Shown here in pieces: positions 13,001-35,825 of a DNA stretch of 38,808 bases. The notes under the pieces were generated by a model. That model saw nothing but the letters and a program-made list of their open reading frames with translations, had not been told where the DNA came from and did not search any database. The translations under genes were made by a program, and so were the position numbers. Origin of the DNA: a virus; the IMG/VR virus record IMGVR_UViG_3300013093_000108, positions 1 to 38,808 of that record. The stretch is one strand, 5' to 3'. Every line of letters starts with the position of its first letter. The first letter of the stretch is position 1.

Positions 13001-16000
13001 TATGTAGGCGGTCCTCAAAATGTCATACAAGGACATGATGGTAGTCTGTTGCTAGCCTTCAATGATTATCGAGATGCTATTATTCTAGAATATGAAACAC
13101 GTATCTTTAATAATATTAAAGTTAATTACGATCCTAATTTATTTGATATCAATAGTGTAACTCCCGGAAGATTTAGAAATAATGATTATTCATATTCTGA
13201 AATACAGTTATTGATACAAGACATGTTCATTAAATGGACAGGAATGTATAACGTTACATATGATAAGAATTTAACATACGATATAAACGAGCACAAAACT
13301 TATAATTATAAATCCGCCACAGATTATATATTCGGAGGCAATTTTACCGGTAGTTGGAGAAGTATATACAAATATTATTTTGACACAGATAGACCGGATC
13401 TCTGTCCATGGGAAATGTTAGGATTTTATATCAAACCCGATTGGTGGGATAGCTATTATGGACCATCTCCATATACAGCAGGAAATGCCCAGCTTTGGAC
13501 CGATCTAGAAGAAGGTTATGTAGCACAAGGACCCAGACAGGGATTTAATCCTTTATATGCACGTCCTGGGTTGAGCCAAGTTATTCCTGTTGACGATAGC
13601 GGAAATCTTTTAGATATTAGAGAATGGGGAGGACTAAAATTAAATGATAGTATTCCTAATCAATCTCAAGATTGGGCATTTGGTGATATAGGTCCTGCTG
13701 AAAATGCTTATCGTAGAAGTAGCAATTGGCCTTTCGCTGTACAGATAATCTCTGCATTAGCAAAACCAGCTGATTACGCAAACAAATTATTTGATACAAG
13801 CCGGATGACATTAAATCTAGCAGGTCAATATACATATAGTTCTGCAAATAAATTTGCATCTCCTAGTTCATTATTTTTACAAGGAGATACAGTTAATGGA
13901 AAAACTATTAGGACTTCTGGATACGGAGTATATGTATTAGAAAACGGAACTATAAGGCAAAGCAATTATCTATCATATCTAAAAGATCAATTAGCGAATG
14001 GTAATTTTAATCTGTTTTATAAGGTTGGTGGATTTGTTAATCAGAACCAATTAAACATCAGCGTAGATTCTTATAATTTATCTACACAGAGCGTTACTCC
14101 GTTTTTACCTAACGAAAATTATAGCATATTCTTTAATACAAGTAATCCTGTATTATCGATAGGAATCTCCGGAGTTATAATAATAAAAACTAATGGCAAG
14201 TATCTAATAAAAGGATATGATAAACAGGATTTATATTTTACTATAAATGAACCTCTGCATAATTTAAGAGATACTACTATCACAGTTGGCGGACAATCAG
14301 CGACTTATCTCAATTGGGCATCTGGACAGGCCTATCAAGCCGGTCAGATAGTGTTTTATGAAAATAGTTTTTACAGAGTTAACAGTAACTATGTAAGTTC
14401 TATTTCTTTTGATGCTACCTATAATCAACTATTATCTGGATTACCAACTATAGGTGGAATAACCGTACAAAAATCTGCATCATTTTCGACAGCAGAAACA
14501 AAAATACCTTATGGATCTGTATTTGAAACTGTGCAGGAAGTTTATGATGTGCTACAAGGTTATGGTAATTGGTTAACTACACAGGGTTTTGTGTTCGATG
14601 AATTTAACAATGATTTCGGTCAAGTTATCAATTGGGATTTTACCACATCAGAGTTTATCTATTGGACTACACAGAACTGGGCTAATAACAGCGTTATAAC
14701 ACTGAGTCCTTTTGCAGATACGCTAACTTTTAACTATAAAGAAGGCGTAGTTGATAATTTACTAGATAGTTTTTATGATTATGCCGTATATCAGGCAGAC
14801 GGGACACCATTTCCTGCTAATAATTTTAGTATCGTTCGTTCTTCGGGAATTATATCTATTAAATCAAATTCTACCACACAAGGTATATTTTTTGCTAGAT
14901 TGAATCTTGTACAAAAAGAACACACATTAATATTTGACAACACTACTGTTTTTAATGATGTTATATATGATATAGAATCTGGTTATAGACAGTTAAGGAT
15001 GAAATTACAAGGATTTAAAACCGGAGGTTGGACGGGAGATTTCTTTAGTCCTGGATTTGTTTATGACAACGCTACAGTACAACAATGGACTCCCTATGCC
15101 AGTTATATGCCTGCTGATGTGGTCCGCTATGTAGGAAAATATTATTCTGCCATCGGTAAGATTACAGGATCAGAAACATTTGATTTTACTAAATGGTATG
15201 CCCTTCCGGAAATTCCAAAGGCCCAACTACTACCTAACTTTGATTATAAAATAAATCAATTTGAAGATTTTTATAGCCTAGATATTGAAAATTTTGATGC
15301 TAGCCAACAAAAGATGGCACAACATCTGACAGGATATAGCCCTCGTCCTTATCTCGACAATATATTTTCAGATCAAACCGCACAATATAAATTCTATCAG
15401 GGATATATCAAAGAAAAAGGTACACTCAACGCTTTAACAAAATTAGAAAAAGCCGCTGCCTCTAACATGCTAGGTACGATAGATGTCAATGAAGAATGGG
15501 CATTTAGGATGGGAGCTTATGGTTCATTTAGCAGTTATAATGAATTAGAATTTCCATTACGTGAACATGATTTCATAGAAAATAATCAAGCGATACAATT
15601 TGTGGGGTCCACACCTGTTAACCCTACTCAAACTATTTCTTATATATCATCTAGTGATTTATTAATATCTCCGAAACATTATTCTTCTACACAACCGTTC
15701 GCTACAGTTACCGGTACCTATAAAAATAATACACTATCACTACCATATGCTGGTTATGTAAGGTTAGACGATGCTACCTATACATTTACAAATACCAATG
15801 CGATCCTTGCAATAACAAATAATTCATTATTAAACGATGGAGATAAATTATGGATAGGATTTGATTATGCCAATGATTGGTCTATCTATAGATATACTAG
15901 GACGCATTGTAATGTTATTGGTGCTAACCAGTCAGGTGCTGACATTATTTTTACTACTAATAAACCGCATGGATTGTATATTGGCCAATTAGTTTCCATT

Positions 16001-19000
16001 ACCGAATTGTCTGATACTCTTAATAATGTCTACCAAGTATCTGATATTACTACTCCGTCATCATTTACAGTAGTATCTAATAAGAATGTACCAACGAATT
16101 TAAAAACCAGAGGAGTATTATTTCAGTTTGCTAAATCTAGATTTGATGTAGTTGATGATATAGCAAATATTCCTTTCCCTACTTCTTTAAAAGAAGGTGA
16201 ATTATTTTGGGTAGATGATAATGGACACGGGCTTTGGTCAGTATATAGGAAACAAAATAATTTTAGAGATTATGTTTATCCTGCTCCTAATACCTACGAA
16301 CAATATAAACAACAATACGGGTATAAAATAACCAAACGTGCTAGTAGCACAACTGTTATCGTTTCTGCAGCCGGATATTATGATCCTACGGCAGGGTATG
16401 GAAGACTATTTGTCTATGAAGCTGATCCTGCCACAGGTGCTCTTTCACCGATCAACAATTACGGATTAAACACAAAATTAGATCAATACAGGCCTACGTC
16501 AGATCCTACTCCATTCGGGGATGTGGTATTTTATGACGACACTGATGATTTAATTTTTGCGGCAGCTAGTGCAGGAACTACCGGAACTGCTATCACAGAC
16601 ATCAATCCTTCTACTGGAATTTATAGCACTGATTTTACAAATGATATTATTAATTGCGGTCTAGTAAAAATAGCAGAACCTAACCGATTAGGAACAGCCT
16701 CATTAGAACTAGAAGCTGTAACATTACAGGTGTTATATAATCCGGGACATCCTGTAGCAGGTTCTTATTTTGGTTCTAGTATATATGTACAGGGAATACA
16801 AGGAAATAAAACTGTACTAATCGGTGCACCAGGAAAACTTAATAGTACGGTTACATCAGGAACGGTATATGTCTACAATCTTTCTATAAGTGAGAGTGCC
16901 AATACCTATGGACCTTTTACAGGAACAGTTTATGGATCTGGATCAGGTGCTAGTTTTAATATTACTATTTCTAATAGAGGGTATACAGCAAGTGTTATCA
17001 ATAGCGGAACAGGATACACTACCGCAAGTGTTATAGTCATAACAGGCGATCAGCTCGGCGGTATATCTCACGAAAATGATGTATTCTTGCACGTTAATTC
17101 AGCTACATCTAACGGTTCTATTGTAAATCTAGCACCTATATCTACAAATTTTGTAGCCGCATATAGGTCGATGGAGGTAGTTAATAATAACTCTATATAC
17201 CCACCTAGTTATATTACTACTGCTACTGGTTCTCAATTTGGTTATAAGATATCGGGTAGCAGAGACGGAAGTGTAGTCGCTATATCTGCTCCGGGCTATG
17301 ATTATAATAGAGGAATAGTATTCATTTATAAAAATATAAATGGAGTCTATCAGATGTGCCAGACGATAGATCCGTCTTCGCTAGCTGTTAATTCAAATTA
17401 TAATAATTCTAGTAAAAAAGGAGATCGGTTCGGTAATGATCTTGCTATCAATGAAGATGGAACATACTTATTTGTAACAGCAGATAGGATGAGCGACGGA
17501 GTTACTGAAGCCGGTAAAGTGGGTGTTTACACATGGAATGGATCTACATTTGATTTTGCTCAATTGTTAGATAATCCTGCTATTTCAAATATCAATTTTG
17601 GAAATTCTATAAGCGTAAATCCAGATGCTTCGACTATTGTAGTGACCGGTCAGGGTGCTCCTTTCTTCAATGATGTTACATTTGATCAGAATAAAACTAC
17701 ATTTGATAACCACTCAACTAATTTTGGAGATATAATAACTGGATCAGGTAGTGCTTATGTATATGAGAGATACAATAAGAAATTTATATATAACCAGGAA
17801 TTACTAGATACCAGCGTTAACAAAGGTGGTAACTATGGATATAGTGCAGTTATTGATGACGCATTGATATATGTGGGTAATCCAGATATTACTTCTGGAT
17901 TAGAAGGTTCTGTACATCTATGGAATAAACAAGATACTACCGCAGTCGGTTTAGGCGAATATAGAGTAGAAGAACCGTTAGTAGATTTAGATCTAATAGA
18001 TAAATCATTTACGATCGATACACTAAAAGGTCAAGTATTAGACTACTTAGACATAATTGATCCTATCAAAGGTAGGATCGCCGGCGTTGCTGAACAAGAA
18101 ATAACTTATAGAAATAATTCTGATCCTGCTATATATGACACAGGACCTAACGTGGTTGTAGATTCTACTAAATCGTGGAAAGACGAACACGTTGGTGAAA
18201 TATGGTGGGATATATCTACTGTAAAATATGTTTGGTATGAACAAGGTGACATATTATATAGAAAAAATGCCTGGGGGTTAACATTCCCTGGATCGACAAT
18301 AGATATTTACGAATGGGTTGAAAGTACCTACCAGCCCAGTACTTGGGCATCATTGGCAGATACTCCTGCCGGACTAACACAAGGAATAAGTGGACAACCA
18401 AAATTTCCTGATAATTCGGTATACTCAACAAAACAGTTGTATGATAAGAGTACAGGACAATTTACAACCTACTATTATTACTGGGTAAAAAATAGTACAG
18501 TGGTTCCAAGCAACACAACACGTAGGATGTCATCTAATGATGTATCTAAATTAATATATAATCCCGAGTCATACGGTGCAGAATATATATCAATTACTGG
18601 ACCTGACTCTATTAATGTAACAAATTATGGCTCTCATCTAATAGCTGATAGAATAAGCCTTAACATAGGATATGATTCATTTAAGACTAATATAAACAGG
18701 CATACTGAGTGGGCAATTATACAAGAAAACAGTGAAAATAGTATGCCCACGTCTGCACTTAATCAGAAATTAATTGACAGTCTATTGGGACACGATACAC
18801 TAGGCAATCCAGTTCCTGATCCTAATTTAACATTTAGGCAATCATACGGTATTGAGATAAGGCCAAGACAGAGCATGTTTGTTAACAGATTATCTGCTCT
18901 AAGAAATGTCATAAGTTTTGCTAATGATACATTACTTAAATTAAGAACCAAAGGATTTGTAAACTTTGATATTCTTAATAGCAAAGAAGAAATACCAAAT

Positions 19001-22000
19001 ATTATAACAGGACTATATGATCAGGTAGTTGAGGATATCGTATATAGAGATATAGTAATGACAGACCATCTAAGACAGGCACAGATTTCTTGTACTGTTA
19101 TAAATGGCAAGATCGATTCTATAACTATAGATGATCCCGGCTATGGATATATGACTGCACCTACAGTTACTGTAGGCGATGGATTAAATTCTGTTATTTT
19201 ACAAACATCAATTGATGGTAATGGACGTATAAATTTTGTTGAGATAATAAATCCCGGATCTGGGTTTGTTACTGCACCGACGATAACTGTAAGACCTTAT
19301 ACCGTAATATTATTAGTGGATCCAGAATTTAATAATAAATGGAGCGAGTATCAATGGGTAAACAGTAGTTGGGTGAGAATACATACACAGACATTTGATA
19401 CCACGAAATATTGGAAATATGTAGATTGGGTAGATCCTACTTATAATCCATTGAAACCTATTTCTTATTCTGTAGGACAGGTCTATGAAGTCGTAGAACA
19501 AGAATCATCTCTTAGCACAGGTGACTATGTTAAAGTTTTAAATGGCGGTGATGGAAATTATATTATCTTAAGAAAAACAGCGGCAGGAACATCGGGCACA
19601 TTTGATAACGATTTTGATATCATTTATAGCCAAAACGGAACTATACAGATATTAGAAGGTGCGTGGAATGTAACTACAGATGATTATGGATATGATCAAG
19701 TTATTCCTTTTGATGAAACATTGTTTGATCAAAATGCTGATATAGAATTAAGTAATATATTAACAGCATTGAAACAAGATTTATTCTCTGGCGTTAATAG
19801 ACTATACTGGAATCAATTCTTTTTCGCCGCAGTAAGATATGCAATTACAGAACAGCCATTATTAGATTGGGCTTTTAAGACCAGTTTTATCAATGTTACT
19901 AATAAAGCAGGTGTGTTAGATCAGAGAATTAATTATAGATACCAAGACCCTACATGGTACCAAGATTATTTGAATGAAATTAAACCTTATCATACACAGA
20001 TAAGGAATTATCAGGTTAATTATCAAATAGGTCAAAACAATAGTACTCCTTGGGAGCCTACACAGACATTTACTAGCGATTTTGATTTACCTGCTTATTT
20101 TAATACAGCATTGAATACATTTACAGTAGTAACAATATCTAGTTCTTTACTATCTCAATATCCTTATAAATCATGGATTGATAATTATACATCTAGTATT
20201 GAAAAGATCATATTAGAGACTCCGGGTTCGGATTATAAAACAACTCCTATAGTTACGATCGTATCGGCTCCGGGAGATACAGGTGCTGGTGCTACTGCAC
20301 AGGCATACATATCTAATGGTAAATTATCATTTATACAATTAACAAATCCTGGATCGGGATATTTTATAACACCTACAGTTGTAATATCAGGGGGCGGCAA
20401 TTTAAATCTTACAACCGCTACTGCGTATGCTCAACTTACCGGAAGCCTAGTAAGAAGTAACTTTATTAGGATGAAATTTGATAGAATAACAGCTACTAGA
20501 GAACTTGGTAATACAACTGCGGCTATTACAACCACAACTAATGGAACAAACAATGTATTTGATTTACAGTGGGCATCTAGCCCATTAAAGAACGATACAA
20601 AACTTACACTCGACGGATTACCTGTTCTTAAATCTACCTATACGATAACAAACTATACAAAGGTAATAACAGGTAATGGTACAGATTATACTAAATGGTA
20701 TAGTAAGGTAACTTTAAATTTTGTTCCTAAAAAGGACCAAGTATTAACTATATCCTATAAAAAGAATATAGAATTATATAATGCTGTGGAACGCATAGAA
20801 GATTATTATAGTCCGACAGTTGGTATGTTAGGAACAGACACAGCACAATTGATGTATGGAATAGAATACCCTGGAATTACTGTACAGGGATTACCGTTCA
20901 ATGTTAATCTAGGATTCGGTGATTTTGTCTTTGGTGGTGCTGATTGGGATGATCCAACTGCAAATATAGATACTGAAATTGACGGTGGTAATCTTACCAC
21001 AGCAACTAATGGTCAATTCTTGACTGCACTTGGATATAGGCCAAGTGATATCGTCCTAGATGGGGACGGTTTTGTAACTCCATATACTAGTTATGCACCT
21101 GAAGAATGCGTACCTGGTCAGATGCAAGATACATTATCTATGAATGTGTTTACTAGATCTCCAGAAGGGTCACCTGTAATTGTATCTCAAAGTATATTAA
21201 TAACTTCTACAACATCTAATACTACTGCTAATTTAACATTTGAACCTCCTTCGATTGATTCTGTTTTAGTATCATTTAATAATACATACTTACACTATGG
21301 AATTGATTATGAAATTGATCTTGTTAATACTACATTAACGATCAATACACAAACAACAACTGGAGTGGCATCGATCACAGTAGTAGGAGTTGGCGGCACT
21401 GAACTATATGGTTCTACTTTTGTTACAACTACTTCTAATGTAATCAGTTTTAATAGTAGAAATTTATATAATGAAGTCGGAAGTGTATATGTAACAGTGA
21501 ATGGTCGGACGATTAACGAAAATACCGGAACTCTATACTATACATTTGTTGAGCAATCTGATCTAACAGGAAAGATAACTGTATATGGAATGCCTGAGGG
21601 TACAAATACAGTTCAGGCTTGGTATTTTGAACCTAGCTACAAGGCTTATAGTGAACTAAAACAACAGGTTATACAAGTAGAAACTACATCATCAGTGTTC
21701 AATCTTATACAAGTTCCAGGAATATTGGGACCATTTGAAGATCAAACTATAGTGACAGTAAATGGATCTAGACTAGTTCCTCCTAATACCACATACTATC
21801 AGGTTGAAAATAACCAAACTACATTTATTATACATCCTAATGAAGATAGTGCATCAGGTGCATATTCTTTAAATGCTTTAAAAGTATATCAAAATGGTAT
21901 AAAATTAAATAATCTTAAAGATTTTATATTAGATCAACCTGCAAATAGTATTGTATTCAATACAGGGTTCCTATCTAATGGCGATGTATTAGCTATAGAA

Positions 22001-23170
22001 ACATTAAATGATGCCGCATATATCATAGATGTACTAGCAGAAACTATAACATTCACTAACCCAGTACAGCCTGGTGATATAATTGATATATTAACATTTA
22101 CCAACGGTGATGCTTCTGGTATACGGACTGAACAATTCCCAGCTAACCAGTCCGGACAATATGTTATGGCACGTCAAGTATTCAACGATAATTATGTTTG
22201 GGTGTCAATCGATGGTAAACCTTTAATTAAAGATTACGATTATGCTATACTATCAGACGGTATAACTGTATCTATTAACAAAAATTATTCTTATTCTTTA
22301 TCTAGTAGAGTAGTTATTACTAGTATCAGCGATCAGTTAGTAACTAATGTCATTGGATTTAAGTTATTCCGAGATATTTTAGGGCGTACTCAGTATAAGA
22401 GATTTAGTAATTTAAATTCTACAGTATTAACTAGCCCATTAAATCTTACAGATACAGAAATATATGTTAAGGATAGCAGTACTTTAACATTACCTAGTCC
22501 GACACAAAATCTACCGGGTATTATATTCATAAATGAAGAACGTATAGAGTTTATGACAGTTAGTGGTAATGTTCTAGGACGTATTAAACGTGCTACTTTA
22601 GGCACAGGAGCATTATCTGTATATCCTACCGGAACTCCTGTAGTTGATATGGGTACAGAACAAACTATTCCTGATCTAAGTTTTACATTAAAACAGATAC
22701 AGATAACAACATCTACTACTACAACATATGTATTGAACACTATAACTAATAGTACATCTACAGGAGATGGTATAGTATTGAATCCTTACGTAAATGGGTC
22801 GGATCAGATCGAAGTATATTATGCTGGTATATTATTAAACAAAACTACCACTACCTATCATTATGCTGAAATAGGATTTGATACCGGCGATAACGATAGC
22901 GATACCATAATACCGCCTCAATTTACAGTAAATGTTGCTGATAATTCTGTAACAATTAATTTACAACCAGAAAGCGGTTTAACATTTTCACCAGGAATGA
23001 AATTAACAGTTATACAAAGAAAAGACGCTGTTTGGTATACAGCGGGTCAGAATACCCCAAGCAACGGTGTTAGTTTATTAAGTTCTATAACACCTCAAGC
23101 ACAATTCCTATTAGAAAGGCAGTCTGGAATACCGGATAAATATCTTTATGAACACAACTTCAACCAATAA
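10046..23170 (+). CDS. Giant baseplate/tail protein (4374 residues) in the gp7 position, with FG-GAP propeller
   Basis: A single uninterrupted 13.1-kb frame, one third of the window, starts at ATG 10046 with GGAG upstream. The N-terminus (LPAYYQTDKNYKFLASTLDQ, then RLNGYIGSF) resembles the short wedge-binding domain of gp7/P2-I type proteins. YYWLPTGPD follows near residue 140. Residues about 2095-2620 form repeated FG-GAP-like blades: AGYYDPTAGYGRLFVYEA, FGDVVFYDDTDDLIFAAAS, YFGSSIYVQG with VLIGAPG, FGYKISGSRDGSVVAISAPG, RFGNDLAINEDGTYLFVTAD, NFGNSISVNPDASTIVVTG and NYGYSAVIDDALIYVGNPD. These suggest a seven-bladed propeller. Glycine-rich G-x-GY units occur near 2290-2350, 3013-3085 and 3385-3465. 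The C-terminus (QAQFLLERQSGIPDKYLYE) resembles ends of marine phage tail proteins. It sits exactly where T4 has gene 7 (1032 residues), so a peripheral wedge or receptor-binding scaffold is likely. Function is inferred. Confidence 0.75.
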   Translation: MVRQTSNLLPAYYQTDKNYKFLASTLDQLIQTPEIQRLNGYIGSFLSPMFIPLTDIYISDPQPLRNNYQLLPALVIRNDDTSVAKAYGYDDLINQLSFYGSNVSNLNRLFRPDYYSYDPKIDWDKFVNYNQYYWLPTGPDTVTITGAEKEITSTYTVTDSEDKSFFVFSPDGLTIDPLVTLYRGVTYVFNVDSDYNFYIKTGPESGPNDLYNIDIINNGIKKGQIIVTVTDYTPNTLYYTSDDGRFASGQFVVKSVTEDSYIDISSEILGKAQYTSANGIKFINGLQVTFGGSVYPSTYAKGVYIVEGVGSAISLVDIYSLKTPEDIADQYDDNFDGEAFDDFPFDDFETLPLVPEYITINRASKDLNPWTRYNRWFHIDVLKTTAAANGRDFVAPSTGIAQRPIIEFKANLQLYNFGSIGIQPVDYIDTITKDAFSQVENSSGYWIDGSQIEEGDRVIFNADPDPLVQGRVFRVHFVIVDDTSKDRYRTASPIISLVPTDDNIPPTYASVVAKKGNTYGGTSWWFNGTKWIEAQQHKTRNEAPLFDVVDSNRNSFSGSNYSGTFKGTKIFGYKIGSGPVDSVLGFPLSYQSTALESTYLFENYFMTDSFVNVVSNVGTTIPVSSGYLVDYTNTITNYVNVWTQAEPYQLAVQQFQVVYNPTSSIPITVFDNPSTITDLSANVFVNNVRYSSTEYSITTSTTGTVSINFTTPLSASDTGNSILFNLYTSHVPNSTGVYEVPINLTNNPLNGTINEFTLSEIIDHVRDMANRDPEFEGKFPGSGNLGMLPNASKYGARFVSNKNSIAFSQYFISDREHNLISAIRKGGDDYNQFKLNFIKTITSIQDSFTPADAVDYVLDQLNQNKNTSFPYFMSDMVPYGTNKKMRRHTVTDPRNVAYPITDVFDITNLSNNSVLIYLNDVQLVYGLHYTFDSLDPAVIIQAPLTKGDVIVIYEYLNTDGCYIPPTPTKLGLYPKFVPMMMVDDSYVGGPQNVIQGHDGSLLLAFNDYRDAIILEYETRIFNNIKVNYDPNLFDINSVTPGRFRNNDYSYSEIQLLIQDMFIKWTGMYNVTYDKNLTYDINEHKTYNYKSATDYIFGGNFTGSWRSIYKYYFDTDRPDLCPWEMLGFYIKPDWWDSYYGPSPYTAGNAQLWTDLEEGYVAQGPRQGFNPLYARPGLSQVIPVDDSGNLLDIREWGGLKLNDSIPNQSQDWAFGDIGPAENAYRRSSNWPFAVQIISALAKPADYANKLFDTSRMTLNLAGQYTYSSANKFASPSSLFLQGDTVNGKTIRTSGYGVYVLENGTIRQSNYLSYLKDQLANGNFNLFYKVGGFVNQNQLNISVDSYNLSTQSVTPFLPNENYSIFFNTSNPVLSIGISGVIIIKTNGKYLIKGYDKQDLYFTINEPLHNLRDTTITVGGQSATYLNWASGQAYQAGQIVFYENSFYRVNSNYVSSISFDATYNQLLSGLPTIGGITVQKSASFSTAETKIPYGSVFETVQEVYDVLQGYGNWLTTQGFVFDEFNNDFGQVINWDFTTSEFIYWTTQNWANNSVITLSPFADTLTFNYKEGVVDNLLDSFYDYAVYQADGTPFPANNFSIVRSSGIISIKSNSTTQGIFFARLNLVQKEHTLIFDNTTVFNDVIYDIESGYRQLRMKLQGFKTGGWTGDFFSPGFVYDNATVQQWTPYASYMPADVVRYVGKYYSAIGKITGSETFDFTKWYALPEIPKAQLLPNFDYKINQFEDFYSLDIENFDASQQKMAQHLTGYSPRPYLDNIFSDQTAQYKFYQGYIKEKGTLNALTKLEKAAASNMLGTIDVNEEWAFRMGAYGSFSSYNELEFPLREHDFIENNQAIQFVGSTPVNPTQTISYISSSDLLISPKHYSSTQPFATVTGTYKNNTLSLPYAGYVRLDDATYTFTNTNAILAITNNSLLNDGDKLWIGFDYANDWSIYRYTRTHCNVIGANQSGADIIFTTNKPHGLYIGQLVSITELSDTLNNVYQVSDITTPSSFTVVSNKNVPTNLKTRGVLFQFAKSRFDVVDDIANIPFPTSLKEGELFWVDDNGHGLWSVYRKQNNFRDYVYPAPNTYEQYKQQYGYKITKRASSTTVIVSAAGYYDPTAGYGRLFVYEADPATGALSPINNYGLNTKLDQYRPTSDPTPFGDVVFYDDTDDLIFAAASAGTTGTAITDINPSTGIYSTDFTNDIINCGLVKIAEPNRLGTASLELEAVTLQVLYNPGHPVAGSYFGSSIYVQGIQGNKTVLIGAPGKLNSTVTSGTVYVYNLSISESANTYGPFTGTVYGSGSGASFNITISNRGYTASVINSGTGYTTASVIVITGDQLGGISHENDVFLHVNSATSNGSIVNLAPISTNFVAAYRSMEVVNNNSIYPPSYITTATGSQFGYKISGSRDGSVVAISAPGYDYNRGIVFIYKNINGVYQMCQTIDPSSLAVNSNYNNSSKKGDRFGNDLAINEDGTYLFVTADRMSDGVTEAGKVGVYTWNGSTFDFAQLLDNPAISNINFGNSISVNPDASTIVVTGQGAPFFNDVTFDQNKTTFDNHSTNFGDIITGSGSAYVYERYNKKFIYNQELLDTSVNKGGNYGYSAVIDDALIYVGNPDITSGLEGSVHLWNKQDTTAVGLGEYRVEEPLVDLDLIDKSFTIDTLKGQVLDYLDIIDPIKGRIAGVAEQEITYRNNSDPAIYDTGPNVVVDSTKSWKDEHVGEIWWDISTVKYVWYEQGDILYRKNAWGLTFPGSTIDIYEWVESTYQPSTWASLADTPAGLTQGISGQPKFPDNSVYSTKQLYDKSTGQFTTYYYYWVKNSTVVPSNTTRRMSSNDVSKLIYNPESYGAEYISITGPDSINVTNYGSHLIADRISLNIGYDSFKTNINRHTEWAIIQENSENSMPTSALNQKLIDSLLGHDTLGNPVPDPNLTFRQSYGIEIRPRQSMFVNRLSALRNVISFANDTLLKLRTKGFVNFDILNSKEEIPNIITGLYDQVVEDIVYRDIVMTDHLRQAQISCTVINGKIDSITIDDPGYGYMTAPTVTVGDGLNSVILQTSIDGNGRINFVEIINPGSGFVTAPTITVRPYTVILLVDPEFNNKWSEYQWVNSSWVRIHTQTFDTTKYWKYVDWVDPTYNPLKPISYSVGQVYEVVEQESSLSTGDYVKVLNGGDGNYIILRKTAAGTSGTFDNDFDIIYSQNGTIQILEGAWNVTTDDYGYDQVIPFDETLFDQNADIELSNILTALKQDLFSGVNRLYWNQFFFAAVRYAITEQPLLDWAFKTSFINVTNKAGVLDQRINYRYQDPTWYQDYLNEIKPYHTQIRNYQVNYQIGQNNSTPWEPTQTFTSDFDLPAYFNTALNTFTVVTISSSLLSQYPYKSWIDNYTSSIEKIILETPGSDYKTTPIVTIVSAPGDTGAGATAQAYISNGKLSFIQLTNPGSGYFITPTVVISGGGNLNLTTATAYAQLTGSLVRSNFIRMKFDRITATRELGNTTAAITTTTNGTNNVFDLQWASSPLKNDTKLTLDGLPVLKSTYTITNYTKVITGNGTDYTKWYSKVTLNFVPKKDQVLTISYKKNIELYNAVERIEDYYSPTVGMLGTDTAQLMYGIEYPGITVQGLPFNVNLGFGDFVFGGADWDDPTANIDTEIDGGNLTTATNGQFLTALGYRPSDIVLDGDGFVTPYTSYAPEECVPGQMQDTLSMNVFTRSPEGSPVIVSQSILITSTTSNTTANLTFEPPSIDSVLVSFNNTYLHYGIDYEIDLVNTTLTINTQTTTGVASITVVGVGGTELYGSTFVTTTSNVISFNSRNLYNEVGSVYVTVNGRTINENTGTLYYTFVEQSDLTGKITVYGMPEGTNTVQAWYFEPSYKAYSELKQQVIQVETTSSVFNLIQVPGILGPFEDQTIVTVNGSRLVPPNTTYYQVENNQTTFIIHPNEDSASGAYSLNALKVYQNGIKLNNLKDFILDQPANSIVFNTGFLSNGDVLAIETLNDAAYIIDVLAETITFTNPVQPGDIIDILTFTNGDASGIRTEQFPANQSGQYVMARQVFNDNYVWVSIDGKPLIKDYDYAILSDGITVSINKNYSYSLSSRVVITSISDQLVTNVIGFKLFRDILGRTQYKRFSNLNSTVLTSPLNLTDTEIYVKDSSTLTLPSPTQNLPGIIFINEERIEFMTVSGNVLGRIKRATLGTGALSVYPTGTPVVDMGTEQTIPDLSFTLKQIQITTSTTTTYVLNTITNSTSTGDGIVLNPYVNGSDQIEVYYAGILLNKTTTTYHYAEIGFDTGDNDSDTIIPPQFTVNVADNSVTINLQPESGLTFSPGMKLTVIQRKDAVWYTAGQNTPSNGVSLLSSITPQAQFLLERQSGIPDKYLYEHNFNQ
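23135..23142 (+). promoter_or_regulatory. Late-promoter-like GATAAATA motif before the 217-residue gene
   Basis: GGATAAATATC (23134-23144) lies inside the 3' end of the giant gene. The same 11 bases occur on the minus strand upstream of the gene starting at 36513. If it works as a late promoter with initiation near 23148, the downstream ATG 23172 rather than ATG 23148 would be the usable start. Tentative. Confidence 0.25.
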
Positions 23171-29195: not shown

Positions 29196-31109
29196 ATGCC
29201 TTACATCTTATACAAGTCAAACGGTACACCTTTAGCTACAATAGCAGATGGGTCTTTGAATGCTTCATCGACTTCTTTAACGTTTGTGGGAAAAAATTAT
29301 GCAGGATATGGGCAGATATTAAATCAAGACATATTAAAATTATTAGAAAACTTTTCTAATACTACAAGTCCTAATAATCCTATCACTGGGCAATTATGGT
29401 ATGATTCCGTAAATCGAAGATTAACAGTGTATGATGGAACACAATTCAAACCTTTGTCAAATATCAGTTCGGGATCTGTTACACCTAATGACAATTCAAA
29501 AGGTGATTTTTGGTTTAACGATACAGAGCAAAAATTATATTTTTACAACGGATCAAAATTTTTAGCTATAGGTCCAGAGACATCTACTTTTAGCGGAACT
29601 AAAATAAATTCTGCATTGGTTACTGATGTAAACAATATAAGTCATTATGTATTAGAATTTACTGTAACAGATGACACAGGTATTCCTAGGATAATAGCAG
29701 TAGCATCTAAAGATGAAATATCTTCAGTAAGCCCTACTGATCCGTTATATACACAAAATTTTACAACATTAAAACAAGGTTTAACATTACCAACTAGTGA
29801 TCCTGTTAATGGAAATAGTATTTCAAATCTTAACGAAGGTGCTTATTATTTCTGGGGAACAGCGGCCAATGCTAGGGGATTGGTATATGCTACTAATGCT
29901 GGAATACCGGCGGTATTCCACCAGGCAGAAGATTTCTTCTTATATGCAGATTATATAAACGCATTAGCTAATGGATTAAAAATTAATAATGATTTTGGAC
30001 TTTATCTCGGTGGCGGATATGATTTCCATTTCCACTATTCCGGATCGGGTGCACATATAGGGCAAATTACCAATTTGACCGGTAACAAGATAGCATTTGC
30101 AGTAGGTGATTTAGCTAATACCAGTACCAATGTACTAACAATAGACGGACAATCTCTAGTTCCTGGAAAAGGTGTAACAGGAGATAGTGGTAATAGTATA
30201 GCGGTTAGTTATTTTGATTTAGGACAAAGTACAAATGGGTTTGCTAATTTGTATGTGAATACAGTTACATCTACAGTGATAAATGTAACTACCATGACCG
30301 GTACTGATCTACTACTAACAGATTCATTCACGACTTTAAACGCTTATGTAACTAATCAAACATCGACCAATATAATTTCTACAAATGTGTTGTCGATTTT
30401 ATCTACTACTACTAATCTAACAGTTGCTAATGATGCTACAGTTGGAAACAATCTCTCTATTACCGGTAATGCTAACGTACAGGGAAACATTATATTAACT
30501 GGTGCTAATAGCACATTACAAGGAAATATATCTGGAAATGTATCTGGAAATATTTCGGCTAGTGCTGTAACAGCCACTAATGTATATGCCAATTCTATTA
30601 ATGTAACATCTCAAGTAATAACATCTGGTACCGTTGTCACTGCGAATCTTGTAGCATACGGAGGCGGATATGCTAGCCCAGGTATTATAACTGGTGCTTG
30701 GTCGTTAGCTGGTAGCAGTACGATGGCAGCTACTTATGCTGACTTGGCGGAAAGATATCATGCAGATGCAACTTATGATTATGGAACTGTATTAGTAGTG
30801 GGCGGAACTAAAGAAGTAACAGCTACTACTACAAGGGCCGCAGTTAACGTAGCAGGAGTAGTTAGTGAAAGACCTGCGTTCAAGATGAATCAAACAGCAG
30901 GTAATGATACTACACACCCATACATAGCACTAAAAGGTCGATTACCTTGCAAAGTTGTTGGTATAATACACAAGGGTGATAGATTAGTAACTAGCTCACG
31001 TTCCGGATACGCAGAAGCATTTCAAGAAGGCGATAGTGAAAACGCAGTTATCGGAATCGCTCTAGAGGATAATCTTTCCGATACAGGAAAGATCGAAATC
31101 AAAGTTTAA
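29196..31109 (+). CDS. Tail fibre protein D with G2-like C-terminal beta domain
   Basis: A 637-residue fibre paralogue and the last gene of the structural block. The N-terminal module reads STSLTFVGKNYAGYGQILNQ, LLENFSNTTSPNNPITGQLW, YD, then a second GDFWFNDTEQKLYFYNGSKF repeat. Residues about 360-480 are a regular Thr/Asn/Val beta-helical shaft (TVANDATVGNNLSITGNANV, QGNISGNVSGNISASA). The C-terminal 130 residues (AATYADLAERYHADATYDYG to DTGKIEIKV) align with the end of fibre C, keeping GRLPCKVVGIIHKGDRLVTS. The stop TAA at 31107-31109 overlaps the stop of the convergent thymidylate synthase gene, with no terminator between. Confidence 0.85.
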   Translation: MPYILYKSNGTPLATIADGSLNASSTSLTFVGKNYAGYGQILNQDILKLLENFSNTTSPNNPITGQLWYDSVNRRLTVYDGTQFKPLSNISSGSVTPNDNSKGDFWFNDTEQKLYFYNGSKFLAIGPETSTFSGTKINSALVTDVNNISHYVLEFTVTDDTGIPRIIAVASKDEISSVSPTDPLYTQNFTTLKQGLTLPTSDPVNGNSISNLNEGAYYFWGTAANARGLVYATNAGIPAVFHQAEDFFLYADYINALANGLKINNDFGLYLGGGYDFHFHYSGSGAHIGQITNLTGNKIAFAVGDLANTSTNVLTIDGQSLVPGKGVTGDSGNSIAVSYFDLGQSTNGFANLYVNTVTSTVINVTTMTGTDLLLTDSFTTLNAYVTNQTSTNIISTNVLSILSTTTNLTVANDATVGNNLSITGNANVQGNIILTGANSTLQGNISGNVSGNISASAVTATNVYANSINVTSQVITSGTVVTANLVAYGGGYASPGIITGAWSLAGSSTMAATYADLAERYHADATYDYGTVLVVGGTKEVTATTTRAAVNVAGVVSERPAFKMNQTAGNDTTHPYIALKGRLPCKVVGIIHKGDRLVTSSRSGYAEAFQEGDSENAVIGIALEDNLSDTGKIEIKV

Positions 31110-32128
31110 ACAGCAAACGGAAATTCTATCGCAGGTTGGGGATCGTAATCTTCCAATTTGATATCTTCCATCGTAAATTTAGCGATATCTTTTATTTCGG
31201 GATTTAATACCAACTTAGGAATTTGTCCAGGAATTCTTTTTAACTGCTCCTTAACACCCTTAACCTGATTCTCATAGATATGTGCATCTCCAAAACTGAT
31301 AATTAGTTCACCCACATCTAGATCGCATACCTGTGCAACCATATGCGTTAGTAAGGAATAGCTAGCAATATTAAATGGCACACCTAGAGGAAAATCTGCA
31401 CTACGTTGGTACATATGGCAACTTAGTTTACCAGTTGGTAAACCAAACGCTTTTAAATCATCAATAGTTTTAGCACGGCCTTCTCGTCCAACATCCATGG
31501 CTGCTTTTTCGCTATTACTTCGAGTAGCACGATAATCCATGTATTGCTTATTAATTTCTTCTTGGCTAGGCCGACTAACATAGAACTGAAACATAATATG
31601 GCACGGAGGTAATGCCATCATATCAATTTCTCCAGGATTCCATGCACTGACAATATGTCTACGTCCATATGGATCAGCTTTAATCCCTTTAATAACATCA
31701 GCCAGTTGATCGACTGTATGTAATATAACTGTCCTTACACCTACTACAGGTTTCCTCCAACTACGCCATTGTACTCCGTATATGCGTCCTAGGTCACCTT
31801 TATGTCTAGCTACTCTACGATTCACCCAATAATCAGCTTCGAGATTATCACTCCAAATAGTGCGTTTTTCTGTATAACGTTCTCCGTGTAATATTTCTCT
31901 TAATCGAAACTCATCTCCGCTTCCTTCTATAAACCAAAGTAACTCACTTACTACCGCTCTCCATGCTAATTTTTTTGTAGTAAGTGCGGGAAATCCTTTA
32001 CTTAGATCAAATCGCATTTGAGGACCAAATTTACTGATAGTACCTACTCCTGTCCTATCGGGCCTATGTTCGCCATTGGTTAATATATCTTTTAGTGTAT
32101 CGAGGTATTCTTGTTCTGGATGTTTCAT
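31106..32128 (-). CDS. td: Thymidylate synthase (ThyA type, T4 Td-like) with an insertion
   Basis: The enzyme makes dTMP from dUMP with methylenetetrahydrofolate. From ATG 32128 it has 340 residues. That start has AAGGA seven bases upstream and aligns with the usual N-terminus. A 25-codon in-frame extension to ATG 32203 (ATGA overlap with the upstream gene) has no ribosome site. Visible ThyA landmarks are DRTGVGT (24-30), PYGRRHIVSAWNP (153-165), the catalytic ALPPCHIMFQFYV with Cys176, RSADFPLGVPFNIASYSLL (242-260) and GDAHIYENQ. Length exceeds E. coli ThyA (264) and T4 Td (286), mainly because about 45-50 residues (SRPSQEEINKQYMDYRATRS onward, 185-233) are inserted between the active-site strand and the GKLSC strand, with a smaller insert near 75-110. 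It is the last gene of the minus block. Confidence 0.95.
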   Translation of the reverse strand: MKHPEQEYLDTLKDILTNGEHRPDRTGVGTISKFGPQMRFDLSKGFPALTTKKLAWRAVVSELLWFIEGSGDEFRLREILHGERYTEKRTIWSDNLEADYWVNRRVARHKGDLGRIYGVQWRSWRKPVVGVRTVILHTVDQLADVIKGIKADPYGRRHIVSAWNPGEIDMMALPPCHIMFQFYVSRPSQEEINKQYMDYRATRSNSEKAAMDVGREGRAKTIDDLKAFGLPTGKLSCHMYQRSADFPLGVPFNIASYSLLTHMVAQVCDLDVGELIISFGDAHIYENQVKGVKEQLKRIPGQIPKLVLNPEIKDIAKFTMEDIKLEDYDPQPAIEFPFAV

Positions 32129-32199
32129 TTCTTTGTCCTTTGAGGCGAATAAAGGCATCAGAAAACTAATGCCTTTAATCTTATCTACTACTAAACCAA

Positions 32200-32793
32200 T
32201 CATTCAGCGGCTTCAGCCACTTTCTTAGTTTTAGCCTTACTTTTAGGAGGATCTAAAAGATCAGCCTCCTTGCGTAACTGTGCCGCTTCTTTATAAAGTG
32301 CATCAGCTCTGCTACGTAAATCAGAAGCTGTCATTGGCTTGGGATCGATCTCAATTTCTTTAGCTTTGATCTCTGCGGCCTTTTCCTTAGCTGTTTTCTT
32401 AGGAGGTTGACTTCCATCTGTAACTGCTAAATCTCCAATATCAACACCCTTTTGCTCTGCAATAATTTCGTTTAATTTATCTAACGATATCTGTGTTTGA
32501 GCATCAGGAGTCATGAATACTGAAGAAGTTGGAACTTTTTTCAAGTGTCCGTTGTTATGTAGATAACCTAACATAACACTACCATCAGCGAATCGACGTG
32601 TGGCCAAAATGTCTGCAAGTTCATTCGCTTGTTGACCGGCCTCGCTTTCAATTGTTGTCATAAGGAAATCGTGATAACTATCTCCTAATCCTTGTACACC
32701 TAATATTAGGCAACTATGCGGGTCTCCGGGAAGCGTTCTATAAACGACTGCTACCCTAGCCGAATTGTTCTTCATTTTACCAACGTGTTTCAT
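32200..32793 (-). CDS. Conserved phage protein of unknown function, Lys/Ala-rich C-terminus
   Basis: A 197-residue product with a strong ribosome site (AAGGAGA, four bases before ATG 32793). The first 100 residues look folded: VAVVYRTLPGDPHSCLILGV then a QGLGDSYHDFLMTTIESEAG segment, followed by LADILATRRFADGSVMLGYL. The rest is a charged, probably disordered and coiled region rich in Lys, Ala and Glu (KKTAKEKAAEIKAKEIEIDP, ADALYKEAAQLRKEADLL), ending KAKTKKVAEAAE. I associate the N-terminal part with a conserved unnamed protein of T4-like marine phages. No catalytic motif is seen. The stop overlaps ATG 32203, an alternative thymidylate synthase start (ATGA). It is likely co-transcribed with the two small genes upstream. 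Confidence 0.8.
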   Translation of the reverse strand: MKHVGKMKNNSARVAVVYRTLPGDPHSCLILGVQGLGDSYHDFLMTTIESEAGQQANELADILATRRFADGSVMLGYLHNNGHLKKVPTSSVFMTPDAQTQISLDKLNEIIAEQKGVDIGDLAVTDGSQPPKKTAKEKAAEIKAKEIEIDPKPMTASDLRSRADALYKEAAQLRKEADLLDPPKSKAKTKKVAEAAE

Positions 32794-32802
32794 GTGGTCT
32801 CC

Positions 32803-33021
32803 TTAGGCTGCTGGTTGTTGATCAGCAGGTTGTTGTGGTGCGACTGCTTCGAGAAACTTAACTAATTTGTTAAATTGTGTTCCGATAGCCTCCATCTCTG
32901 CGGCACGAAACGCACCGCGTTGTGCTGCCACCTCGATAATTGATTTAAGATTTTGTAAATCAATAACTGTTAACTCTGGTTGAGCTGGTGCCGCTGTTTG
33001 ATCTTGTTGTTGTTCTGCCAT
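32803..33021 (-). CDS. Small conserved protein of unknown function
   Basis: 72 residues. The ATG at 33021 overlaps the previous stop (TAATG), with AAGGAT upstream. The centre, ELTVIDLQNLKSIIEVAAQR then GAFRAAEMEAIGTQFNKLVK, predicts two amphipathic helices. Both ends are Gln/Pro/Ala-rich and likely disordered. Similar short proteins occur in marine T4-like phages without known function. A protein-binding adaptor would fit the helices, but that is a guess. Confidence 0.75.
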   Translation of the reverse strand: MAEQQQDQTAAPAQPELTVIDLQNLKSIIEVAAQRGAFRAAEMEAIGTQFNKLVKFLEAVAPQQPADQQPAA

Positions 33022-33305
33022 TATAAATCCTTATTTTCTAAATAGGGGCATCCTAAAAGAAACATAGTTACTTCTTTAGAATCTTCTATGCCCAATTCGA
33101 TAATCTCTATAATTTTATTTTGATCATCTACCTTTTGTCCTTTTTTGATGCAATATCTGCTGTCTAAATTAGTATATATCCAGCTGTCAATTTCGTCAAT
33201 AGAAGAATTATTGATAGTTAAACTTTCAAAATGAGGAGGAATGTAATTGAGCCTTCTCAGGCCCAATACGTTTAACGGGTTCACTCTTCCTCTAACTAAA
33301 GCCAT
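33021..33305 (-). CDS. Small conserved protein of unknown function
   Basis: 94 residues beginning MALVRGRVNPLNVLGLRRLN, a basic segment, followed by an acidic half (SSIDEIDSWIYTNLDSRYCI, then IIEIIELGIEDSKEVTMFLL). No domain is recognised. The gene follows the VWA protein stop by 12 bases. A TATAAATA motif at 33319-33326 lies just upstream, so this gene and the three after it (ending in td) might have separate late expression. The ribosome site is weak (TAGG). Confidence 0.7.
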   Translation of the reverse strand: MALVRGRVNPLNVLGLRRLNYIPPHFESLTINNSSIDEIDSWIYTNLDSRYCIKKGQKVDDQNKIIEIIELGIEDSKEVTMFLLGCPYLENKDL

Positions 33306-33317
33306 TATCTACCTACT

Positions 33318-34586
33318 TTATTTATAATGTGCAGTCTGGCCGAAGGGTGCGATTATGGTTTCATTACCGTGTACGATAAACAGGCTTTCGCAGTAATTTT
33401 CATCACCCCAACTACCACAAGGATATCCGTCTGTGAACATGATAAAGCGTTTTGGTTCGATACCCTGTTCTTTCATAAACTCGTAGTTTACATCAAAATC
33501 AGTACCGCCGCCGCCCTTGCATTCATATTCTAAAATCTCGTCGGCTATGTCGCCAGTAAATCTTTTGTATCCATATACTTTAGTATCGAATGTCCAAAGA
33601 TCTAATTTGAAATCTACGTATTCGTCCATAATACCTTTAACTTCGCTTAGGAAATCTTTAGCCATAGTGTCGCTGATACTGCCCGACATATCAATAGCTA
33701 CTGATATATCGATAGTTTCTTCGTTCATCATTCCCGGTAATACAGCACCGCTATGCATACTCTTACGATTAGGACGGCTAAAACTAAAATTGCTTTTTAA
33801 GATACTCTGGATGTTCATGCGTAGCATCTGTCTCCAGTCCATTTTAGGTTCTGTAAAATCAGAAATAAGGCGTTGGATGCCGGATGGTACTCGACCTGCT
33901 CCTGCGGCCTGAGCGGCAGCTACCATGGCTTCTTTAATCTCATCGCGGATAGCCTTCTTTTCTTCAGCGGTTAATCTTGGGCGACCCTTACCGTCTTTAT
34001 TTCCATCTCCGCTACCGTTGCTGTCATCGTCGCCTTCTTCGCCATCGAGATGCTCGTCTAGTAATTCACCTAATGAATTCATATCTATCTTAACAGCGTT
34101 TTTCTCAATCTCTTCGTAAATCTGTTCGTAACTCCATCCTCGATATTTGTTATCTTGGAAAATCTGTATCCAGCTAGGAACTACTCCGATACGCTCATCG
34201 ACTAAGATTTGATTAGCGGCATAATCAGCGGCAATATTTGATAGTTGAGGATCGCGTCCGTTGCGACGTCCCATATGATCAAATACATTATGTAATACTT
34301 CATGTGCGAAAGCAAACTCAGTTTCTTTTGGTTTTAACTGATCTACGAAATCATTGCTGTAATAAAAATTACGACCATCTGTAGCTAATGTTTGGCACCA
34401 GTGTGATGCATCTATTAACTTCATACGTGTTGCTAAATTACCAAAGAAAGGATGACGCAGTAAAAGACCGATACGTGCTTGTACTAGTTTTTCTACGATT
34501 TTACTTTTTTCAGCCTCGCTAAAAACTTTAGGAGCCTTAACTTTTTTAGTTTTTTCCTGTTTCATTACACTTGAACTAGAAGCCAT
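33318..34586 (-). CDS. Metallopeptidase-like plus VWA domain protein (MoxR partner)
   Basis: 422 residues from ATG 34586, preceded by AAGGA at six bases. The longer frame to 34619 is excluded because it would begin inside the promoter. Residues 95-104 read HEVLHNVFDH, an HExxHxxxxH zinc-peptidase pattern within a domain like that of VWA-containing metallopeptidase-like proteins. A very acidic linker (LDGEEGDDDSNGSGDGNKDG) follows around residues 180-200. The C-terminal VWA domain has a complete MIDAS: DMSGSIS (about 300), GGGGTDFD and FTDGYP. Proteins of this design usually pair with MoxR ATPases, encoded here next door upstream. The substrate is unknown. It could remodel or cleave a phage or host complex. 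A T4 counterpart is not known to me. It has its own sigma70 promoter and lies downstream of a terminator, so its dose can differ from that of the ATPase. Confidence 0.85.
   Translation of the reverse strand: MASSSSVMKQEKTKKVKAPKVFSEAEKSKIVEKLVQARIGLLLRHPFFGNLATRMKLIDASHWCQTLATDGRNFYYSNDFVDQLKPKETEFAFAHEVLHNVFDHMGRRNGRDPQLSNIAADYAANQILVDERIGVVPSWIQIFQDNKYRGWSYEQIYEEIEKNAVKIDMNSLGELLDEHLDGEEGDDDSNGSGDGNKDGKGRPRLTAEEKKAIRDEIKEAMVAAAQAAGAGRVPSGIQRLISDFTEPKMDWRQMLRMNIQSILKSNFSFSRPNRKSMHSGAVLPGMMNEETIDISVAIDMSGSISDTMAKDFLSEVKGIMDEYVDFKLDLWTFDTKVYGYKRFTGDIADEILEYECKGGGGTDFDVNYEFMKEQGIEPKRFIMFTDGYPCGSWGDENYCESLFIVHGNETIIAPFGQTAHYK
33319..33326 (-). promoter_or_regulatory. T4-late-type promoter motif TATAAATA
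   Basis: The minus strand reads TTATAAATAAAGT, identical over 13 bases to the motif near 557-564, and contains the exact T4 late consensus. It overlaps the VWA gene's last codons (CAT TAT AAA TAA), so it could partly be coding coincidence. Predicted initiation is near 33313, eight bases before ATG 33305. Confidence 0.45.
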
Positions 34587-34610
34587 ATACATTCCTTTCA
34601 ACAAAACATT

Positions 34611-34639
34611 ATTATACACTCTAATTTACCAAAGAGCAA
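34611..34639 (-). promoter_or_regulatory. Sigma70-type promoter for the VWA/metallopeptidase gene
   Basis: On the minus strand TTGCTC (34634-34639) and a perfect TATAAT (34611-34616) are 17 bases apart. Initiation near 34604 gives a leader of about 18 bases with AAAGGA. The 14 bases from the -10 onward (TATAATAATGTTTT) are identical to those of the MoxR promoter. Confidence 0.75.
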
Positions 34640-34642
34640 GTT

Positions 34643-34661
34643 AAAAAGGCCCCGTAGGGCC
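34643..34661 (-). terminator. Intrinsic terminator after the MoxR gene
   Basis: On the minus strand GGCCC, loop TACG, GGGCC is followed by TTTTT. The closing C-G pair around UACG makes a very stable UNCG-type tetraloop. It starts five bases after the MoxR stop and ends just before the -35 of the next promoter. The plus-strand reading has a less stable CGTA loop, so minus is the likely direction. Confidence 0.8.
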
Positions 34662-34666
34662 CTTTT

Positions 34667-35749
34667 TTAAGACTCCATCGCTTGGATAATAAATTTTCCG
34701 TATTTGTCATGGAACTTATCAAAGTACTTGAGCTTACTAGCATCAAACGGTAGTTGATAGTTAGTAAGTGCTACCTTAGCACCCATAACAACTAGTTCAG
34801 TTGGGAAATTATCCATCATAAACTTAAAGAAGTTATCTGCCTTGCTATTCCACTCTTTGTCTTTCTTCTGATCAGCTGTTTGAAGTTCATAACACATACT
34901 GATAGTTAAAGAGTACATAGCTGAGATTTCTTTGATGTCAAATTTGTTAACTTTACCATCTAGGATATCTTCTGGCTTAGGCATCTGTTTAGCTACCTTA
35001 CGGTGTGCCATAAACTTAACAGCAAGACCTTCTCCGATAGCACCTGCTACTAAATCAGTTAATGTACCTTCTTCTAAATCGTCATCGTGTAACAAGTTAC
35101 TTACGAATGACCAGCTACGTGGTGTAGCAAAGGCACGTGAACTAGAACGTGGATCAAAATCATACAAATCATTCTTAGCAAATGACACATAACCCACTAC
35201 CTGCTCGTGTACTTTGTTCATAACTGCCCACTCTAACCAGTCATCAAAGTTACGCTCTAGTTCAATGTGTACGAAACGATTAGCCAACGGAGCAGGCATA
35301 CGATAAGTAACACCTTTATCTGTTTCTCTGTTACCTGCGGCAACGATTGAAACGCCTTCTGGCAATTTATAAGTACCTACACGACGATTTAGAACCAATT
35401 GATAAGCGGCAGCCTGTGTAGCAGGAGCCGCAGAGTTAAGTTCATCTAAAAACAAAATAGCAGTAGATTCTGGATCTGTAGGCAATTCTGCAGGAGGTGC
35501 CCAAGTCATAGTACCTGCATCACTATTGTAGTAAGGGATGCCCTTAATATCTGTGGGTTCCCAAAGACTTAAACGTACATCGATAACTTCACGACCTTGC
35601 TCGTTACCAATCTGTTTAACGATATCTGATTTACCAATACCTGGAGGACCCCACATAAACAGTGGTTGTTTAATCTTTACAGCCTTGCGAATGCTTTTTT
35701 TAGCATCGTTTGGACCAACTGTACGATTACCGGAGATTTCTTTAGCCAT
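34667..35749 (-). CDS. MoxR-type AAA+ ATPase
   Basis: A 360-residue AAA+ ATPase. Visible parts are Walker A GPPGIGKS (34-41), Walker B ILFLDE (98-103), sensor 1 AAGNRE (137-142) and the arginine-containing LANRF (155-159). AAAYQLVLNRRVGTYKLP and VSIVAAGN place it in the MoxR/CbbQ-like branch. MoxR ATPases work as hexameric chaperones that, with VWA partners, insert cofactors or remodel complexes. The adjacent VWA gene provides such a partner. The C-terminal third (from about residue 200) is an all-helical lid that I do not match further. The ATG at 35749 has AAAAGG six bases upstream and follows a consensus promoter with a leader of about 41 bases. Its terminator follows directly, so it is probably made as a monocistronic early transcript as well as by read-through from upstream. 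Confidence 0.9.
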   Translation of the reverse strand: MAKEISGNRTVGPNDAKKSIRKAVKIKQPLFMWGPPGIGKSDIVKQIGNEQGREVIDVRLSLWEPTDIKGIPYYNSDAGTMTWAPPAELPTDPESTAILFLDELNSAAPATQAAAYQLVLNRRVGTYKLPEGVSIVAAGNRETDKGVTYRMPAPLANRFVHIELERNFDDWLEWAVMNKVHEQVVGYVSFAKNDLYDFDPRSSSRAFATPRSWSFVSNLLHDDDLEEGTLTDLVAGAIGEGLAVKFMAHRKVAKQMPKPEDILDGKVNKFDIKEISAMYSLTISMCYELQTADQKKDKEWNSKADNFFKFMMDNFPTELVVMGAKVALTNYQLPFDASKLKYFDKFHDKYGKFIIQAMES

Positions 35750-35796: not shown

Positions 35797-35825
35797 ATTA
35801 TACAGGTATTTAGGTAAATTGTCAA
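35797..35825 (-). promoter_or_regulatory. Perfect sigma70 promoter for the MoxR gene
   Basis: The minus strand has TTGACA (35820-35825), a 17-base spacer and TATAAT (35797-35802). Both hexamers and the spacing match the consensus exactly. The -35 overlaps the stop codon of the upstream gene. This should be the strongest host-polymerase promoter in the window. Confidence 0.9.

Follow-up and report, generated by a model that had tools for sequence, protein, structure and literature searches.

A conserved MoxR ATPase and VWA–metallopeptidase gene pair in a fragment of a jumbo myovirus genome

The Locus and Its Genes

The window, a virus fragment of 38,808 bases (IMG/VR record IMGVR_UViG_3300013093_000108), carries across its left 31 kb the genes of T4-like proteins of the baseplate, wedge, and tail fibres. 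As its close relatives include contigs of 323–355 kb, the source is a jumbo myovirus, and the window is a piece of its genome. Among the baseplate and tail-fibre genes lies a single ORF of 4374 amino acids (10046–23170, plus strand) that looks like a giant baseplate- or fibre-like protein; Pfam gives it one sub-threshold match, to CBM_5_12. Our focus was on a MoxR gene followed, after 80 bp, by a gene encoding a VWA/HExxH protein, with a run of further genes behind them:

34667–35749, minus strand: gene for a MoxR-type AAA+ ATPase, 360 aa (Pfam, PHROG, structure matches of the model)
33318–34586, minus strand: gene for a DUF2201 protein with a metallopeptidase-like domain, an acidic linker, and a VWA domain, 422 aa (Pfam, PHROG, model)
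31106–33305, minus strand: downstream run of orf94, orf72, orf197, and thymidylate synthase, with gaps of at most about 12 nt or overlaps

The VWA/HExxH ORF as listed spans 33318–34619 and begins with GTG. Because this GTG at 34619 overlaps a promoter −10 element, we prefer the ATG at 34586, which stands behind AAAGGA and is almost certainly the true start. The order of the genes downstream of the VWA gene is kept in relatives. Together with the four same-strand genes behind it, the last of them thymidylate synthase, the VWA gene seems to form an operon in which it comes first. The sequence-only reading had regarded the pair as a stand-alone module; since the VWA gene leads this tight run, the description is valid for MoxR, apparently a monocistronic unit, and fails for its partner. 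The thymidylate synthase gene (31106–32203, minus strand) overlaps orf197, apparently with translational coupling, and its product is longer than the Pfam model (365 aa versus 266 positions).

Expression Signals

The following signals were found around the two genes:

35797–35825, minus strand: MoxR promoter, sigma70-type TTGACA-N17-TATAAT, a perfect 12/12 match and the best in the region
34643–34666, minus strand: intrinsic terminator after the MoxR stop, hairpin GGGCCC-TACG-GGGCC plus T tail
34611–34639, minus strand: VWA gene promoter TTGCTC-N17-TATAAT, its −10 TATAAT found in 59/61 relatives

That each gene has its own sigma70 promoter, with a terminator between the two, had been read from the sequence and is borne out here, the terminator and the promoter between the genes (TTG-N20-TATAAT) being kept in about 60 relatives. 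The element TGTATAATAATGTTTT occurs as two exact copies, which are the −10 regions of the two promoters. The hairpin between the genes has a folding energy of −16.4 kcal/mol (z −3.4), with 1 of 200 shuffles equally good. We compared 61 distinct MoxR–VWA intergenic regions from relatives and found TATAAT retained in 59, with TTG at −23 in 58–59 of those 59, and a terminator-like element in 60. With a chance expectation for TATAAT of about 0.13 per 100 nt, the conservation of the promoter elements and terminator across relatives puts these signals well beyond chance. The T4-like late promoter TATAAATA, sought to contrast expression classes, gave few matches and was uninformative.

The MoxR ATPase and Its VWA–Metallopeptidase Partner

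The first protein matches AAA_3 (2.9e-7), AAA_5 (1.6e-6), and AAA above the Pfam cut-offs, as well as PHROG 1297 (6e-105). The MoxR sequence hallmarks Walker A and B, the sensor 1 Asn, the arginine finger, and sensor 2 are present, with P210–R211 conserved. Its nucleotide-binding motifs and the main features of the partner protein are located as follows:

35627–35650, minus strand: Walker A GPPGIGKS, residues 34–41, K40 invariant in 82/82 nonredundant relatives
35441–35455, minus strand: Walker B LFLDE, residues 99–103, D102 99% and E103 98% conserved
34275–34304, minus strand: HEVLHNVFDH, residues 95–104, HExxH zinc motif plus H104, invariant in 92/92
33978–34064, minus strand: acidic linker, about residues 175–203, modelled as disordered (184–199 with pLDDT <50)
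33678–33692, minus strand: MIDAS DMSGS, residues 299–303, with T362 and D386, VWA fold Z ~13

Besides K40, the residues N140 (sensor 1), D144, R158, and R211 are invariant in the 82 nonredundant MoxR proteins. The MoxR model (pLDDT 88) had its best Foldseek matches in NorQ, including NorQ–NorD VWA complexes, and CbbQ (E ~1e-9), a fold that supports the earlier likening to NorQ and CbbQ, and midasin was the best solved relative by sequence profile (2e-33). A RavA-type C-terminal LARA domain had no Pfam match in the 360 residues. The bpMoxR profile of the MoxR–vWA ternary conflict systems stayed below its cut-off (18.4 versus 27), and the scanned neighbours included no Pfam-named partner of the VMAP, beta-propeller, iSTAND, or FtsH kind as a third component. 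A role in anti-phage defence was rejected, as PADLOC gave weak P-loop matches only (best 1.9e-4) and none for the VWA protein.

The second protein combines, in the same chain, DUF2201_N (PF13203; 1.5e-44, 153.1 bits against a cut-off of 23.2) and the VWA-like DUF2201 (PF09967; 6e-15, 55.9 bits against 26.4), and it matches PHROG 1314 at 1.8e-107. PHROG 1314 and RefSeq call such proteins "HNH endonuclease," a label that we reject, since DUF2201_N and DUF2201 were the only domains above the Pfam cut-off and no HNH domain was among them. The label is widespread (e.g., NC_071039, NC_008720, and NC_027364), is probably a propagated error in a family name, and conceals the VWA-metallopeptidase in databases.

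The arrangement first read from the sequence, a MoxR ATPase followed by a protein joining HExxH, an acidic linker, and a complete VWA MIDAS, was confirmed by Pfam, by the motifs, and by the model. The MIDAS of the window protein is complete (DMSGS..GGT..TD); across 92 nonredundant proteins D299, S301, S303, and E315 are invariant, and T362 and D386 are 98–99% conserved. The model of the VWA-side protein (pLDDT 82.6) has a C-terminal VWA fold with a best Z of 13.3 over 135 residues (rmsd 2.3), and its Foldseek matches include midasin MIDAS domains. With fold matches on the MoxR as well as the VWA side, the resemblance to a MoxR–VWA pair extends to both parts. Structure-library matches to the whole-chain model were confined to the VWA domain; the lack of one for the peptidase domain does not mean that its fold is new. 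The HExxH segment aligns weakly but in register with MJ1213 (E 0.0045), which we take to be the minigluzincin selecase, and with an M48 peptidase (0.045). On the peptidase side N117, A119, D121, and N125 are also invariant in the 92 proteins. Judged from these sequences, H95 and H99 would be the zinc ligands and H104 or D121 the candidate third, and the zinc-metallopeptidase site appears to be intact. The invariance of catalytic residues in 92 VWA-side and 82 MoxR proteins indicates strong selection on both active sites; evidently, neither activity is dispensable.

Whether the HExxH domain performs a protease step is a question separate from the identity of the client. The domain could be a metal-binding adaptor that does no protease work, the pair then being a plain MoxR–VWA chaperone; consistent with this, we found no DUF2201 proteolysis in the searched papers naming the family, nor a protease assay of any DUF2201 protein, and the third zinc ligand has two candidates. 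We consider an inactive adaptor improbable, however, as H95, E96, H99, H104, N117, D121, and N125 are wholly invariant across phages, HExxH is kept in nearly all bacterial relatives, and the similarity to MJ1213 and the M48 peptidase, weak as it is, lies in register around HExxH. Conversely, a protein that joins MIDAS to HExxH need not cut the client of its AAA partner. It is conceivable but doubtful that the two genes make an ATP-dependent protease of a new type, with which unrelated lytic phages (N4, RaK2-like phages, vequintaviruses, phage G, and Staphylococcus jumbo phages) cleave a single specific client in infection. If true, a MoxR ring would work with a zinc peptidase guided by the VWA domain; we know of no earlier MoxR-driven proteolytic machine.

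Linkage and Spread of the Pair

MoxR lies directly upstream of the VWA gene and on the same strand in 80/80 close IMG/VR relatives, at gaps of about 45–490 nt, and wherever a more distant viral locus has the VWA gene, profile searches placed MoxR nearby. The arrangement is looser in vequintavirus slur16 and a phage closely related to it, where MoxR is about 3.6 kb from the VWA gene on the opposite strand, and in GAP31, where it is likewise on the opposite strand. A search of 50,697 phage records gave 739 with a match to the VWA protein and 808 with a match to MoxR; we judged the linkage of VWA given MoxR from these record counts by host genus, and the tallies are nearly equal. The pair was found in N4, vequintaviruses, cyanophages, phage G, and Staphylococcus jumbo phages, and jumbo phages of many hosts retain it. 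The peptidase–VWA gene is single-copy in each of 22 whole records (70 to 519 kb), the second rows in three of them being fragments of the same frame. The sequence-only reading would have been refuted had the two genes not been conserved together in related phages; they do stay together, in the close relatives as at every distant viral locus with the VWA gene, and the pair is confirmed as real and conserved.

N4 gp24 and gp25 are homologous to the pair by profile, and they are adjacent and in the same order. With these as the same pair, the system extends well past jumbo phages. Bacterial DUF2201_N genes (Thermotoga, Deinobacterium, and others) are adjoined by MoxR in most genome-contig loci; outside phage-like contigs their products are about 23–37% identical, and nearly all of the bacterial relatives retain HExxH.

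In a distant branch the pair has a further gene nearby, of about 300 aa, with a weak match to PF11348 (DUF3150) and 24 homologues on viral and bacterial contigs, often accompanied by phage-type replication genes; the system may exist there in a ternary form. As the DUF3150-like gene is absent near the pair in the window clade and from 21 of the 22 whole records, we rejected it as a third partner for the window system.

Earlier Descriptions and Related Systems

The pair had been put forward as an undescribed system, a claim that does not stand. Iyer et al. (2021, PMC7824862) described for group 2.2 jumbo phages a MoxR and vWA chaperone–cochaperone pair with the vWA fused to an N-terminal metallopeptidase, and proposed for it virion assembly with proteolytic processing. 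Two MoxR-type chaperone subunits were noted in Bacillus phage 0305phi8-36 in 2007 (PMC2147016), and N4 gp24 and gp25 are known as middle-expressed core genes of N4-like phages (PMC4193335). The window pair is one more member of a described pair, sharing with the jumbo-phage pair of Iyer et al. both genes, the fusion of N-terminal peptidase and C-terminal vWA, and a T4-type jumbo tailed phage as carrier. New here are the N4 link, the invariance of the active sites, the conserved expression signals, the correction of the HNH label, and the wider phage range.

The N4 genes differ in belonging to a podovirus, in their low sequence identity, and in being middle genes, transcribed in N4 by the phage RNAP II. 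In the archaeal virus ATV, the MoxR protein p618 is a virion protein that strongly binds its VWA partner p892, which boosts the p618 ATPase (review PMC4124505). The ATV proteins are, like ours, a viral MoxR–VWA pair, theirs an interacting one implicated in tail development, but p892 is without a peptidase domain (PMC7824862), whereas the window protein has DUF2201_N. The cellular systems NorQ–NorD, CbbQ–CbbO, and RavA–ViaA share the MoxR protein, a ring in those systems, and the VWA partner, but have known client enzymes. To our knowledge, NorD, CbbO, and ViaA lack the DUF2201 peptidase domain. The Thermotoga and Deinobacterium genes share the DUF2201_N family and a mostly adjacent MoxR, one bacterial branch differing by its extra DUF3150-like gene.

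Our literature search found no experimental paper on the function of the pair in a tailed phage. One article names N4 gp24/gp25 rIIA/rIIB-like (PMC9525291), whereas in the N4 record rIIA/B are gp33/gp34 and gp24/gp25 are MoxR/VWA.

Possible Clients of the Pair

Building on the gene pair, its predicted MoxR and VWA folds, the invariant catalytic residues, the linkage, and the expression signals, we infer a ring, a docking step, proteolysis, and a client. The MoxR protein would assemble as an ATP-driven ring on which the VWA domain docks, offering the client via its MIDAS metal; the ring would pull on or remodel the client, and the HExxH domain might clip it and so make the step irreversible. 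By analogy with the proposal of Iyer et al. (2021) and with ATV p618/p892, the client may be the phage's own particle or assembly protein. We tentatively favour this reading, in which the pair is a MoxR–VWA protein remodeller with a zinc-peptidase partner and the client is most likely a phage particle or assembly protein, and hold it as plausible at somewhat below even confidence.

Evidence for a particle or assembly client comes from virion preparations. The phAPEC6 virion proteome includes an ATPase, gp265c, of 49.52 kDa (6 peptides, 19% coverage; PMC7247149). We argued its orthology to MoxR via the masses and gene order of PBECO4, of which phAPEC6 (MK817115) is a near-identical relative: the PBECO4 MoxR computes to 49.50 kDa, and the flanking masses agree between PBECO4 and phAPEC6 (thymidylate synthase 35.48 versus 35.51, gp007 25.03 versus 25.02, and sheath 97.04 versus 97.05). 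The PA5oct MoxR is annotated as detected by ESI-MS/MS (virion preparation), and the MoxR of Staphylococcus phage DC4, whose pair is homologous to the window pair, was found in virions by a single peptide (PMC10638138). In PBECO4 and GAP32 the pair comes directly after the tail sheath, tube, and head-closure/completion genes. On the other hand, soluble thymidylate synthase was detected alongside MoxR in the phAPEC6 preparation, which makes carry-over of MoxR possible, and the VWA/peptidase protein is absent from the listed virion proteins where MoxR appeared.

The timing of expression points elsewhere. N4 gp24/gp25 are middle, not late, genes (PMC4193335), and the window pair is driven by host sigma70-type promoters; both facts count against a virion client and would suit a MoxR–VWA-peptidase that takes part in host takeover by remodelling or cutting a conserved bacterial protein in the early or middle phase of infection. 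The pair also occurs in phages that differ widely in morphology and host, as would fit a universal host target, and each whole record tested (n = 22) keeps a single copy. Yet a host target does not readily explain the recovery of MoxR from phAPEC6, PA5oct, and DC4 virion preparations or the position of the pair beside the tail and head-closure genes of RaK2-like phages, and the active sites are strictly conserved and not of the kind turned over in an arms race. We regard a host target as unlikely, and between host and virion client the limited evidence leans modestly towards phage assembly.

Replication or nucleotide-metabolism neighbours, seen in most lineages, also speak against a virion client. 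By analogy with CbbQO and NorQD, the pair could assemble or activate a phage replication or nucleotide-synthesis complex: thymidylate synthase and a 5′–3′ exonuclease are neighbours in the window and its relatives, dCTP deaminase and the gp30 thymidylate synthase in N4, ThyX in S-TIM5, and thymidylate synthase in PBECO4 and GAP32, and a dUTPase adjoins the VWA gene in RG-2014 (PMC5735904). Such genes, however, are plentiful in large phages and the independent lineages few; the neighbouring enzymes vary and need no known activator, and the peptidase site is left without explanation. A client of this kind seems to us quite unlikely.

Of the five core genes of N4-like phages that have no known function, the pair accounts for two (gp24 and gp25; PMC4193335). 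As N4, a phage of laboratory Escherichia coli, carries the pair, the role of a viral MoxR–VWA-peptidase is directly testable, and the N4 link supplies a tractable model. The accessible text of the CRISPRi-ART study covers genome-wide screens of T4, T5, SUSP1, and PTXU04 and holds no N4 gp24/gp25 data (PMC11879866).

Among the genes downstream of the pair, orf197 (32200–32793, minus strand) is without a Pfam match and is kept near the pair in jumbo phages. Its homologue in PBECO4 is gp007 (25.03 kDa), directly downstream of the MoxR–VWA pair of that phage, and the phAPEC6 virion list includes gp262c, of 25.02 kDa, at the position matching PBECO4 gp007. An orf197-type protein is a possible client or helper of the pair.
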